From Malaciobacter molluscorum LMG 25693 (GTDB taxonomy: Bacteria > Campylobacterota > Campylobacteria > Campylobacterales > Arcobacteraceae), in assembly GCF_003544935.1 (NCBI RefSeq), contig NZ_CP032098.1, forward strand, positions 2,418,001 to 2,482,000: a stretch of 64,000 nucleotides of DNA, given 5' to 3'. This document shows positions 22,789-28,917 of the stretch, piece by piece. The notes under the pieces were generated by a model that was given only the letters and a program-made list of their open reading frames with translations, made no database searches and was not told the origin of the DNA. A program made the position numbers and the translations under genes. Every line of letters begins with the position of its first letter. The stretch's first letter is position 1.

Positions 22789-22796
22789 TATTTTAA
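22763..22796. terminator. Bidirectional hairpin containing both convergent stop codons
   Basis: A 14-base stem (nine perfect pairs around ATACTACTT / AAGTAGTAT, one G-U, four more A-T pairs) with a six-base loop contains the methyltransferase stop (22786-22788) and the DUF779 stop (22793-22795). An eight-T run follows on the plus strand. Confidence 0.65.
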
Positions 22797-23170
22797 GATT
22801 CAATTTTTTTTAATTCTTCATACTCTTCATCTGTAAAAATTCTAGATTTAGTAATAAATTGATAACCATAATCTATTTCTAAAGAGAAAGAATTACCAAA
22901 TGCAGCACTCTCTTCTTTTACATCAATTGTAATCTCAGAATGCCTAAAATATTCAAATTGATCTTTATCTATAAAAAATTCACAACCACAAATTTCACCT
23001 AATTTTACATTTCTACTAGGTACATAAAAATCATCTTTTTCATAACACATTGGTGCTGTACCATCACAACAACCACCACTTTGATTAAAAACAAGTTCTC
23101 CATGTTTTTGTTTTATCATCTCTACAACTTCTTTTGCTTTTTGTGTTACTTTTACTCTTTGTACACTCAT
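22793..23170 (-). CDS. DUF779 family protein
   Basis: This is a 125-residue cytoplasmic protein of a family that typically sits beside NAD-dependent aldehyde dehydrogenases, as here. Cysteines are prominent: SGGCCDGTAPMCY (about 31-43) and an ICGCEF segment. The end, an SLEIDYGYQFITKSRIF stretch, is conserved-looking. The role is unknown; a metal-binding or folding-helper role for the dehydrogenase is speculation. The gene lies 63 bases after ald with a 12-base inverted repeat in between. Confidence 0.85.
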   Translation of the reverse strand: MSVQRVKVTQKAKEVVEMIKQKHGELVFNQSGGCCDGTAPMCYEKDDFYVPSRNVKLGEICGCEFFIDKDQFEYFRHSEITIDVKEESAAFGNSFSLEIDYGYQFITKSRIFTDEEYEELKKIES

Positions 23171-23233: not shown

Positions 23234-24730
23234 TTAAAAGAACCCTAAAGCTTTTGTATCATATGAAGTTAGAATATTTTTATTTTGTCTATAAGAGTTC
23301 AACATCATCATATGAGTTTCTCTACCGATACCTGATTTTTTGTACCCACCAAATGATGCATGTGAAGGATAAATATGGTAACAATTTACCCAAACTCTAC
23401 CAGCTTCAATTGCTCTACTTACTTTATGTAATTGGTGTGCATTTCTTGACCATAAACCAGAACCTAATCCATAAACTGTATCATTTGCAATAGCGATTGC
23501 TTCTTCTTCATCTTTAAAAGTAGTAACTGCAAGAACAGGTCCAAAAATCTCTTCTTGGAAAATTCTCATTTTATTATGCCCTTTAAAGATAGTTGGTTTA
23601 ATATAATTTCCTTTAGGGAAAGTTTTACTAGTGTACTCTTCTCCACCAATTAAACATTCAGCACCCTCTTCTTTACCAATTTTCATATATTCTAAAATTT
23701 TTTCTTTTTGATTAACTGAAGCTTGTGCTCCCATCATATTTGATTCATCAAGTGGATTATCTTGAGTGATTTTTGCTACTCTTTCTAATACTCTTTTCAT
23801 AAATGGTTCATAAATTGATTCTTGAATTAATGCTCTTGAAGGGCAAGTACAAACTTCACCAGAATTAAATGCAAATAAAACTAAACCTTCAATTGCTTTA
23901 TCAAAAAATTCATCATCTTCATCCATAATTGATTCAAAGAAAATATTTGGAGATTTACCACCAAGCTCAAGTGTTGAAGGAATAATATTTTCAGTTGCAT
24001 ATTTCATAATTAATTGACCAGTAGTTGTTTCACCTGTAAAAGCTACTTTTTTTACATCTGGATGAGTTGCTAATGCTTTACCAATTTTTCCTCCTGCACC
24101 ATTAATAATATTAATAGTTCCTTTTGGTAATACATCTTGAATAGTTTCCATTAAAAGTAAAATTGACATTGGAGTAGCACTTGCTGGTTTTAACACAATA
24201 CAATTTCCAGCTGCTAATGCAGGAGCTAATTTCCAAGCTGCCATTAATAAAGGAAAGTTCCATGGAATAATTTGTGCTACTACACCATATGGTTCTTTAA
24301 TTTCTTGAGAAACAGTATTTTCATCTAAATCAGCAATAGTCCCAGCTTCACCTCTAATAACAGAAGCAAAATATCTAAAATGATCAACTACTAAAGGTAA
24401 ATCTGCATTTAAAGTCTCTCTAACTGTTTTACCATTATCTAATGTTTCAGCAACTGCAAGAGCTTCTAAATTAGCTTCAATTGCATCTGCAACTTTATTT
24501 AACATTTTACTTCTTTCTATAACAGAAGCATGTTTATATGTTTCAAATGCTTTTTTAGCTGCTGTTACTGCTAAATCTACATCTTCTTCATTAGATCTTG
24601 GAATCATAGTTAATGGTTCTCCATCAACAGGCGAAAGATTTTCAAAGTATTCTCCACTTTTTGGAGCAATCCATTCTCCCCCAATAAAATTTTCATATTG
24701 TTTTTTAAATGTCGGTCTAGAATGTATCAT
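23234..24730 (-). CDS. NAD-dependent aldehyde dehydrogenase (acetaldehyde-type)
   Basis: It oxidises aldehydes to acids in the cytoplasm. The 498 residues match the ExaC/AldB group. Visible are the IIPWNFP segment, the GGKSPN motif with catalytic E255 and the nucleophile in GEVCTCPSR (C294, with a second C296), plus the acidic insertion DEDDEFF before it. The CxCPSR signature and linkage to DUF779 favour small aldehydes such as acetaldehyde. A minus-strand TAGAAT -10 at 24767-24772 lies 37 bases before the ATG; 11-bp spaced TAGC boxes replace its -35. Confidence 0.93.
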   Translation of the reverse strand: MIHSRPTFKKQYENFIGGEWIAPKSGEYFENLSPVDGEPLTMIPRSNEEDVDLAVTAAKKAFETYKHASVIERSKMLNKVADAIEANLEALAVAETLDNGKTVRETLNADLPLVVDHFRYFASVIRGEAGTIADLDENTVSQEIKEPYGVVAQIIPWNFPLLMAAWKLAPALAAGNCIVLKPASATPMSILLLMETIQDVLPKGTINIINGAGGKIGKALATHPDVKKVAFTGETTTGQLIMKYATENIIPSTLELGGKSPNIFFESIMDEDDEFFDKAIEGLVLFAFNSGEVCTCPSRALIQESIYEPFMKRVLERVAKITQDNPLDESNMMGAQASVNQKEKILEYMKIGKEEGAECLIGGEEYTSKTFPKGNYIKPTIFKGHNKMRIFQEEIFGPVLAVTTFKDEEEAIAIANDTVYGLGSGLWSRNAHQLHKVSRAIEAGRVWVNCYHIYPSHASFGGYKKSGIGRETHMMMLNSYRQNKNILTSYDTKALGFF

Positions 24731-24766: not shown

Positions 24767-24772
24767 ATTCTA
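24767..24772 (-). promoter_or_regulatory. Candidate -10 box for ald
   Basis: TGTAGAAT on the minus strand (5/6 match to TATAAT with an extended TG). The predicted -35 position falls on the TAGC repeat array, as expected for an activator-dependent promoter. Confidence 0.45.
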
Positions 24773-24783
24773 CATGAGAAATA

Positions 24784-24820
24784 TAGCGTGAGTTTAGCAA
24801 TAAAATAGCATAAAAATAGC
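24784..24820. promoter_or_regulatory. Four TAGC boxes in exact 11-bp phase (regulator binding array)
   Basis: TAGC begins at 24784, 24795, 24806 and 24817, each 11 bp apart, so all face one side of the helix. The third and fourth boxes (24802-24820) match a copy at 28899-28917 in 18 of 19 bases. Direct repeats with 11-bp spacing are typical of PhoB/OmpR-family sites, and such a regulator is encoded at 26808. Confidence 0.65.
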
Positions 24821-24909
24821 GTAACTAAAAGTCCCATTTTATAGGTATTTGAGAAGCCAGTAATTAATATTTTTTTATATTTTTCTTTTTTTTATGATAA
24901 AATCTATCT

Positions 24910-26811
24910 ATGAAAACATACAATTATAGTATTGATAATCAAAATATCCAGCAAATAATAGATTTTAATAAATTTAAAAAAGAGAAGAATATTCTTATTC
25001 AAATTTTTTGTGGAGAATCACAAAACAAATTTGATTCAATTTTAAAAACTTTGACAACAAATCTTCCACAAGCAATTTGCATAGGTTCTACTACAGATGG
25101 AGAAATTCATGAATCTTATGTAACAACTTTTAATACAATTATTTCAATTTCTATTTTTAAAAATACAAAAATCAATCATACTTATGTTGAAGGAACTAAC
25201 TCTTTTGAAAATGGACAAAAAATTGCAAAAGAATTAATAAATGAAAAAACTAAACTTCTTATACTTTTTACAGATGGTATAAAAACTAATGGTGAAGAGT
25301 TTTTAAAAGGAGTAGAGAGTATAAATAAAGATACAATTATATGTGGAGGAATGGCTGGAGATAATAGTGAGTTTAAACAAACATATATTTCAAGCCAAGA
25401 TAAAATCATAAAATTTGGTGCAGTTGCAGTATCTCTTAATTCTGATATTTTAAAAATTTTTAATGATTATAGATTTAATTGGATTCCTATTGGAATTGAA
25501 CATACAATTAATGAAGTAAAAAACAATAGAATATATAGTATTTCAAATATGAATCCAACAAGATTTTATGCAAAATATTTAGGTGAAGATGTAGCAAAAC
25601 ATCTACCTTCTACAGGAATAGAGTTTCCCTTAATTATAAAAAATAAATCTTTATCAACAGCAAGAGCAGTAATAAAAAAGCATGAAGATGGAACACTTAG
25701 TTTTACAGGTAATTTTAAAAAAGGAGATATTGTAAAATTAGGATTTGGGAATGCTGAAACTATAATGCAAGATCCAATAAAACAGATAAAAAAAGCTCTT
25801 AATATTTTAAAACCTGAAACTTTCTTTTTATACTCTTGTATGGCAAGAAGAAGATATATGCAAAATTTTATAAAAGCAGAAATTGAGCCATTTAGTAATA
25901 TTGCACCAACAAGTGGTTTTTTTACATATGCTGAATTTTTTCATAATAATGGTTATAATGAACTTCTAAATCAATCTTTGACAATTGTTGCATTAAGTGA
26001 ACATGAAGAGATTCCCAAACATATTGAATTAGAACATATTAATACAGATGGTGAATATGCAAGAACAATAAAAGCATTAACACACTTAGTTGAACAATCA
26101 TCAATTGACTATGATTTACAAACTCAAAAATTAAATAAGCAAAAAAAATATTCAAATAGTTTATTAGCTTCACAAAAACAGTTTTTAAGGTATGTAGTTC
26201 ATGAAACAAATACACCATTATCTGTTATTATGAGTAATATTGAACTATATGAGATGCAATATGGTAAAAATAACTACATTTCAAATATTGAAGTAGCAAT
26301 GAAAAATATATCTTCTATATATGATGACTTAAGCTTTTTAATTAAAAAAGATCAATTAGTTTATAACAAAATCAAAATAGATTTAGTTGATTATATAAGA
26401 AGTAGAATAGATTTTTTCTCACAAGTTGCCTCACAAGTAAAATCAAACTTTATATTAACATCTAATTGCGATAATATGCCTATATTTTTCAATGAGACAA
26501 AACTTCAAAGAATTATAGATAATAATTTGACAAATGCCATAAAATATACTTTTGAAAAAGAGGATATTTATATAAATTTAATAAAAAAACAAAATGATTA
26601 TATATTTAGTATTTCAAGTCACTCAAGTATTATTCAAGATCCTAAAAAGATTTTTGAAGAGTATTATAGAGAAGAGAATACCCAAGAAGGCTTTGGATTG
26701 GGGTTAAATTTAGTAAAAAGAGTTTGTGAAGAAGAAAATGTACATATAGATGTAATCTCAAATGAAAACTCAACATGCTTTACTTATACTTTTAAAGGAG
26801 TTAAAAAGTGA
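24910..26811 (+). CDS. FIST-domain sensor histidine kinase
   Basis: This is a cytoplasmic kinase of 633 residues with no membrane helix. The FIST N and C sensor domains (about 25-215 and 220-365) show the CIGSTTDGEI, CGGMAGDN and LYSCMARR motifs. A short coiled link leads to HisKA with the phospho-acceptor H431 (VVHETNTPL) and a HATPase domain with N538/N539/N542 and a GFGLGL box (594-599). FIST domains are thought to bind small molecules. It overlaps the regulator gene by ATGA. No SD precedes the ATG, which is unusual here. Confidence 0.92.
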   Translation: MKTYNYSIDNQNIQQIIDFNKFKKEKNILIQIFCGESQNKFDSILKTLTTNLPQAICIGSTTDGEIHESYVTTFNTIISISIFKNTKINHTYVEGTNSFENGQKIAKELINEKTKLLILFTDGIKTNGEEFLKGVESINKDTIICGGMAGDNSEFKQTYISSQDKIIKFGAVAVSLNSDILKIFNDYRFNWIPIGIEHTINEVKNNRIYSISNMNPTRFYAKYLGEDVAKHLPSTGIEFPLIIKNKSLSTARAVIKKHEDGTLSFTGNFKKGDIVKLGFGNAETIMQDPIKQIKKALNILKPETFFLYSCMARRRYMQNFIKAEIEPFSNIAPTSGFFTYAEFFHNNGYNELLNQSLTIVALSEHEEIPKHIELEHINTDGEYARTIKALTHLVEQSSIDYDLQTQKLNKQKKYSNSLLASQKQFLRYVVHETNTPLSVIMSNIELYEMQYGKNNYISNIEVAMKNISSIYDDLSFLIKKDQLVYNKIKIDLVDYIRSRIDFFSQVASQVKSNFILTSNCDNMPIFFNETKLQRIIDNNLTNAIKYTFEKEDIYINLIKKQNDYIFSISSHSSIIQDPKKIFEEYYREENTQEGFGLGLNLVKRVCEEENVHIDVISNENSTCFTYTFKGVKK

Positions 26812-27467
26812 AAATACTGCTTCTTGAAGATGACATTATGTTAAATAATGCTATCAAACAATATTTGGAATCATTAGGTCATGCAATGATTTCTACAAGA
26901 GATGGAAAAACGTGTTTAGATATTTTAGAAGATAATAAATTTGATTTATTAATATTAGATATAAATGTTCCACATGTAAATGGATTAACAATTTTAGAAG
27001 AATTAAATAAAAAGAAAAAAGTAATACCTACTATATTTATATCTGCATTAATTGATATAGAAGATATATCAAAAGCTTTTGATATGGGTTGCTATGATTA
27101 TTTAAAAAAACCTTTTCATTTAAAAGAGTTGCATTTAAGAATAAATAGACTTCTACAAAATAAAATAGTACCTTTACAACATAAAAGATTATCTAAAAAT
27201 TATAGTTTTGATTTGGAAACAACGACACTATATTTTAATAATGAACCGCATATTTTACCTAAAAGACAACTTTTAATTATCTCATTATTAGCAAAAAATA
27301 GAAGTTTAGTTGTTAATTATGATATGTTTAGGACTTATGCATATGAAGATGATGAAATTGATATAGCAACAATTAGAGCAGAAGTAAATAGAGTAAAAAA
27401 AGTTTTAAAAGAAGATTTCATTATAAATGTAAGAGGTGTAGGATATATGGTTGAAAGACCAAATTAA
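26808..27467 (+). CDS. OmpR/PhoB-family response regulator
   Basis: This 219-residue regulator has a receiver domain with D8/D9, phospho-acceptor D51, S79 and K101, then a winged-helix DNA-binding domain (about 125-216) ending in VRGVGYMVE. Its start overlaps the FIST kinase stop, so the pair is one operon. OmpR-type winged helices bind direct repeats with 10-11 bp spacing, which matches the TAGC arrays at 24784 and 28903. That link is inference. Confidence 0.95.
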   Translation: MKILLLEDDIMLNNAIKQYLESLGHAMISTRDGKTCLDILEDNKFDLLILDINVPHVNGLTILEELNKKKKVIPTIFISALIDIEDISKAFDMGCYDYLKKPFHLKELHLRINRLLQNKIVPLQHKRLSKNYSFDLETTTLYFNNEPHILPKRQLLIISLLAKNRSLVVNYDMFRTYAYEDDEIDIATIRAEVNRVKKVLKEDFIINVRGVGYMVERPN

Positions 27468-28754: not shown

Positions 28755-28818
28755 TCCTCTTCCTTTATTCATTTATTATAACAAATAAAAGTGAAGAGTG
28801 AATAAAAAAGATTTGTAA

Positions 28819-28849
28819 AAGAAGTCGTTAGAAAATCTAACGACTTCTT
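28819..28849. repeat. Orphan perfect hairpin in the DUF502/bioF divergent region
   Basis: Arms AAGAAGTCGTTAGA / TCTAACGACTTCTT (14 bases) with a three-base loop form one of the strongest stems in the window, yet no annotated gene ends here. T-rich sequence follows on the minus strand (to about 28800), so it could terminate an unseen minus-strand transcript. Confidence 0.6.
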
Positions 28850-28898
28850 ATTAAGTGAAGGAGTACTGATTTTAAGTACAATAAAATTATATCTTCAA

Positions 28899-28917
28899 AA
28901 AATAGCATAACAATAGC
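28899..28917 (+). promoter_or_regulatory. Two-box TAGC site upstream of the bioF-like operon
   Basis: TAGC at 28903 and 28914, 11 bp apart, in a 19-base segment that differs from 24802-24820 at only one base. It lies 37 bases upstream of the TATAAT at 28955, the usual position for an OmpR-type activator. Confidence 0.6.

Follow-up and report, generated by a model that had tools for sequence, protein, structure and literature searches.

A phase-locked GCTA array at ald as a candidate operator of a FIST-kinase/OmpR system in Arcobacteraceae

The aldehyde dehydrogenase gene (ald) of Malaciobacter molluscorum LMG 25693 is preceded by four GCTA boxes at an exact 11-bp period, and at least two boxes in this phase, at a fixed distance from the -10 element, are present in all 57 loci of related genomes in which ald is linked to the same divergent sensor kinase gene. 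Judged from comparison of these sequences, the array is functional DNA. We consider it likely that it serves as the operator of the ald-DUF779 operon, at which a phosphorylated OmpR/PhoB-family response regulator encoded nearby (RR1) would bind and activate from the -35 position, while the kinase system would sense an aldehyde-linked state. Positions refer to the window, i.e. the whole stretch of 64,000 nucleotides that was analysed, which contains the following features at this locus:

22793..23170, minus strand: DUF779 protein (PF05610, E=1.4e-36), second gene of the ald operon
23234..24730, minus strand: aldehyde dehydrogenase, ald (Aldedh, PF00171, E=1.3e-153), the presumed target gene
24767..24772, minus strand: TAGAAT, the ald promoter's -10 element; the proximal box is located exactly 11 nt upstream of it
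24784..24820, minus strand: candidate operator array, four GCTA boxes on the ald strand (TAGC on the plus strand)
24910..26811, plus strand: FIST-HisKA-HATPase sensor histidine kinase (PF08495, PF10442, PF00512, PF02518), divergent from ald
26808..27467, plus strand: OmpR/PhoB-family response regulator RR1 (PF00072 + PF00486), predicted to bind the array

The array at ald and the adjacent two-component system

Positions 24784-24820 read TAGCGTGAGTTTAGCAATAAAATAGCATAAAAATAGC. The preliminary description had reported TAGC starts at 24784, 24795, 24806 and 24817, had judged such a fourfold phasing unlikely to arise by chance, and had placed the array at the -35 position of a TAGAAT promoter for ald and about 90 bp upstream of the kinase gene. 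The positions proved exact and the other points held as well. Exactly 11 nt separate the proximal box from the -10 element (24772-24767, minus strand), so that the two proximal boxes span the -35 region, and the kinase ATG at 24910 follows the array at a distance of 90 bp. Read in the direction of ald, the layout follows the rule (GCTA-N7)n-GCTA-N11-TANNNT, which is a tandem operator arrangement of the PhoB type covering the -35 region. A scan of the 2,800,582-base genome showed three or more TAGC boxes at 11 bp nowhere else, and none of 300 dinucleotide-shuffled versions of the 64-kb window had four boxes in phase (one had three). Single pairs at this distance are common (31 in the genome, with 1.2 expected per window), so that a lone pair is weak evidence and the argument rests on the four-box run and its conservation.

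Conservation was analysed in the 104 genomes of the family, with relatives collected through their kinase protein rather than through the motif; a spacing tally is circular for motif-picked loci, and only protein-picked loci were counted as unbiased. A kinase-like match was present in 98 of the 104 genomes and a full-length orthologue in about 60, and ald was located divergently upstream of the kinase in 57 loci, in one to a few of which the contig ends close to ald or its neighbour. At least two TAGC boxes 11 bp apart were present in all 57 ald-linked intergenic regions (mean of the shuffles 0.3, maximum 2), and 43 of these regions contained four in phase. Successive boxes were 11 bp apart in 154 cases, 22 bp in seven and 12 bp in four. 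The hexamer 11 nt from the ald-proximal box was ANNNTA in every locus (ATTCTA in 30), corresponding to TANNNT and TAGAAT on the ald strand, while the intergenic sequence other than the boxes and the -10 element had largely diverged. Conservation of the spacing across Arcobacter-group relatives, which had been proposed earlier as a check, was thus borne out, and the combination of 11-bp repeats in fixed register with a constant 11 nt to the -10 element over the -35 region (57/57 loci) is that of an OmpR/PhoB tandem operator.

The array also belongs to ald, as it follows this gene when it is unlinked or moved. In two genomes in which ald is unlinked from the kinase (G041 and G042), it is still preceded by a GCTA pair (GCTATATTCAGGCTA-N11-TAGAAT or TACAAT), and in a locus from another family of the order (L296), where ald is located behind the regulator, the site lies between the two. 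One GCTA box remains at the right distance before ald in two genomes that encode ald-DUF779 and no FIST system (G003 and G013). The array was absent from FIST-kinase paralogues unlinked to ald. The DUF779 gene was present in 63 of the 104 genomes, mostly beside ald.

RR1, described earlier as an OmpR-family regulator, indeed carries both family domains, a receiver (PF00072, E=6.6e-25) and a C-terminal winged helix (Trans_reg_C, PF00486, E=2.4e-06), and matches solved OmpR-family regulators (1kgs, BasR) over its full length. The kinase contains the N- and C-terminal FIST domains together with HisKA and HATPase domains and is therefore a FIST-domain sensor histidine kinase. Its phospho-accepting histidine (H431 in HETNTP) was near-invariant among 88 relatives, and H198, W191 and C310 were near-invariant too. 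A conserved extended -10 element (TATGNTACAAT-like) was noted in many relatives at the kinase promoter (24885-24912 in the window). It lies so close to the start codon (about 5-12 nt) that the kinase transcript may be leaderless.

Operator rule, spacer classes and predicted regulon

The pattern GCTA-N7-GCTA-N11-TANNNT matched 717 sites in the 104 genomes, compared with about 160 when N14 replaced N11, and around one fifth of the N11 matches may be due to chance or lie in coding sequence (e.g. G000:C1:1064136, inside a gene). The N14 control was added because the pattern read backwards is not composition-matched, ATCG being rarer than GCTA. Two spacer classes emerged among the sites. Class 1 ([AG][ACG]GCTATA, consensus GCTATAAA), the class found at ald, was defined on genus g2, with 43 sites in nine kinase-positive genomes and none in 12 kinase-negative ones. 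Over all genomes it was present in 51 of 62 kinase-positive and 1 of 42 kinase-negative genomes, and in genera outside the definition set in 36 of 42 versus 0 of 25, a co-occurrence that is partly confounded since kinase-negative genomes often lack the target genes, and that comes from related genomes that are not phylogenetically independent. Of the six genomes in the window's genus, four are among the 11 kinase-positive ones that have no strict class-1 site. Class 2 (...TGCTA) was found upstream of pta, a DUF4212-acetate symporter and genes related to these, both where the FIST system is present and where it is absent. The longest arrays seen, with six GCTA boxes in 11-bp phase, are located upstream of a porin-like gene in genus g2 (L151 4742-4800, L152 and L155), and further rule sites of the window's own genome precede genes for a molybdopterin oxidoreductase and a Cache-domain chemoreceptor-like protein (C1:612786 and C1:1089057).

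Class-1 sites precede most transcription units of a near-ald cluster in seven genomes (G036, G067, G083, G090, G061, G001 and G092), which encodes PQQ alcohol dehydrogenases (PF01011, domains confirmed), cytochrome c-like, solute-binding and ABC-transport proteins as well as genes read as PQQ biosynthesis from sequence and order. Other class-1 sites are located before eutBC (PF06751, PF05985), FIST-MCP and a gene interpreted as encoding type 2 NADH dehydrogenase (NDH-2; Pyr_redox_2). In these relatives the same system would govern the PQQ alcohol dehydrogenase operons, ethanolamine ammonia-lyase, NDH-2 and the FIST chemoreceptor, and throughout the group it probably induces the oxidation of aldehydes and alcohols. 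FIST-kinase orthologues with 50-60% identity were also detected in other families of the order. In one of these (f20, probably Sulfurospirillum-like), a GCTA pair with N11 precedes the divergent partner, here a molybdenum aldehyde oxidoreductase (MoCoBD, Ald_Xan_dh_C), one genome carries a tungsten-type AOR (AFOR_N/C) after the regulator and behind a GCTA-type site, and in f7 and f8 the partner is again ald. No such site was present in 4 of the 20 loci examined outside the family (L281, L282, L289 and L290).

That three non-homologous aldehyde-oxidising enzymes share the system and its operator is the best argument for an aldehyde-related signal, and with alcohol oxidation, ethanolamine ammonia-lyase, NDH-2 and a FIST chemoreceptor in the predicted regulon, the kinase most likely responds to an aldehyde or to an aldehyde-linked state. 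The operator and regulator could be as proposed here and the FIST domain could nevertheless sense nitric oxide via heme, as NosP proteins do (PMC12570481), and a NosP homologue is found beside the kinase PedS1 in the Pseudomonas ped alcohol cluster (PMC12997753), which keeps NO as a rival signal. We regard this as rather unlikely, as the predicted targets are aldehyde- and alcohol-oxidising enzymes, with three unrelated families of aldehyde oxidisers among them, and the regulon sites examined included no gene for NO detoxification. The Pseudomonas ped/exa circuit (AgmR/ErbR, PedS1/NahK, NosP) resembles the system proposed here in controlling PQQ alcohol dehydrogenases and an aldehyde dehydrogenase and in having a FIST protein and a kinase in the cluster; however, its regulator is of the LuxR and not the OmpR type, and its FIST protein is separate and not fused to the kinase (PMC12997753). 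The predicted regulon bears on the FIST ligand, since the NosP ligand is NO and yet the genes predicted here serve alcohol and aldehyde oxidation, as in the Pseudomonas cluster with its NosP homologue. No paper on FIST kinases and aldehydes was found in the literature searched.

For a widespread but so far uncharacterised FIST-kinase system, these comparisons provide a candidate operator, a set of predicted targets and a likely signal, and GCTA-N7-GCTA-N11-TANNNT offers a simple rule for regulon prediction in a group where few regulons are known. We put forward tentatively, as a possibility somewhat short of even, that the FIST-kinase/OmpR pair is an order-wide aldehyde sensor in Campylobacterota that would act through a single phase-locked GCTA operator on three unrelated families of aldehyde-oxidising enzymes (NAD-linked ALDH, molybdenum aldehyde oxidoreductase and tungsten AOR), on the oxidation of alcohols and ethanolamine, and on chemotaxis, with the FIST domain binding an aldehyde-related ligand and not NO, and with a duplicated sister system of diverged spacer running acetate metabolism.

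Regulators and promoters that the array may serve

Binding of RR1 to the array and activation of ald-DUF779, which the preliminary description had already inferred, fits all comparative evidence and is the most likely reading. The FIST-domain kinase (24910-26811) would phosphorylate RR1 (26808-27467), dimers of which would occupy the 11-bp GCTA repeats head-to-tail; the two proximal boxes, exactly 11 nt upstream of the -10 element, would substitute for a -35 element, RR1 would recruit RNA polymerase to ald, and the two distal boxes would extend cooperative binding. We infer the head-to-tail binding, the filling of the -35 position and the activation of ald from two known regulators. PhoB binds head-to-tail to 11-bp direct repeats and replaces the -35 contact (PMC4415409), as is proposed here, but the Pho box differs in repeat sequence, signal and targets, and four to six boxes are found in the present arrays. 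PceP, an OmpR-type regulator of Sulfurospirillum and thus of the same phylum, binds CTATW repeats over the -35 region according to gel-shift evidence, with CTATA at 6-nt gaps (an 11-bp period) overlapping the -35 region (PMC7755780). The PceS/PceP system differs in its tetrachloroethene respiration regulon, in that no FIST kinase is known for it, and in its consensus, given as CTATW-N17-CTATW (PMC7755780). The PceP pattern (CTATW at an 11- or 22-bp period) agrees with the proximal box of the window, GCTATA, and with the class-1 consensus, but one box reads GCTAAA, so that CTATW is not present in every box.

A different regulator might bind the array, alone or together with RR1. RR2, the closest RR1 paralogue in the genome (54% identical), is encoded with a Cache-domain kinase in an acetate locus (L167, C1:535000-554000) that also comprises pta-ackA, two sodium:solute symporters, DUF4212 and CBS/exonuclease genes. 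GCTA pairs are located upstream of pta, the DUF485-symporter and the DUF4212-symporter in this locus, and the core with the N11 rule recurs before pta and DUF4212-SSS. The recognition helices of the RR2 and RR1 groups are nearly identical (IDNPTIRAEISRLKK versus ID.ATIRAEVNRVKK; PhoB served in this alignment as a yardstick only), in line with a shared GCTA core, and the difference in spacers may reflect divergence elsewhere in the domain. Given the near-identical helix and the same core at its presumed acetate targets, RR2 could bind the ald array too, which would place ald in an acetate regulon. The RR2-like spacers (TTTTATT) of the distal boxes in the window's genus and the single box before ald in G003 and G013, which lack the FIST system, are compatible with this; nevertheless, we consider it unlikely, as the spacer class proximal to ald is almost absent without the FIST system while RR2-type sites occur in both groups of genomes, and as ald is syntenic with the FIST system in 57 loci. 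With RR1 as the predicted binder at ald, the two paralogues would be a clean case of regulators with a common core site separated by spacer sequence.

RR1 might also repress ald, since the boxes cover the -35 position and binding could block it. This is decidedly unlikely, considering that the 11-nt distance to the -10 element is constant, as it is in PhoB-type activation, that the -10 element is kept in 57/57 loci, and that PceP, whose boxes are arranged in the same way, is considered an activator (PMC7755780). Activation of ald by RR1 remains preferred, and the earlier suggestion that the regulator perhaps controls its own operon as well was not supported. The array is 90 bp upstream of the kinase and a second TAGC pair lies nearer the kinase in some relatives, but the boxes are oriented towards ald only, the kinase promoter has no GCTA-N7-GCTA-N11 site, and the array is absent from paralogous kinase operons. 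Divergent operons in the PQQ cluster, moreover, have one oppositely oriented site per direction, which indicates that orientation matters, whereas here only the ald-directed site exists; autoregulation through this array was consequently rejected as highly improbable. Chance repetition in AT-rich DNA, where single pairs are common, has a negligible probability in view of the 0/300 shuffles and the 57/57 conserved loci.

A second site in the window and a predicted small RNA

The rule matched twice in the window (0.02 expected), and the second site directly precedes a predicted small RNA:

28886..28917, minus strand: candidate second operator, GCTATTGTTATGCTA-N11-TATAAT, a rule match of class 2 (acetate/RR2 spacer type)
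28811-28885, minus strand: predicted small RNA of about 70 nt, containing CUCCUUC and a Rho-independent terminator hairpin, directly after the GCTA-N7-GCTA-N11-TATAAT operator

The operator was matched in all five congeners. Comparison of the predicted small RNA with Rfam gave no match, and compensated stem changes were observed at 5 of 20 pairs in the congeners and at 7 of 11 pairs in a second group. In a second genus, the small RNA has another hairpin and is located beside a bioF-like gene.
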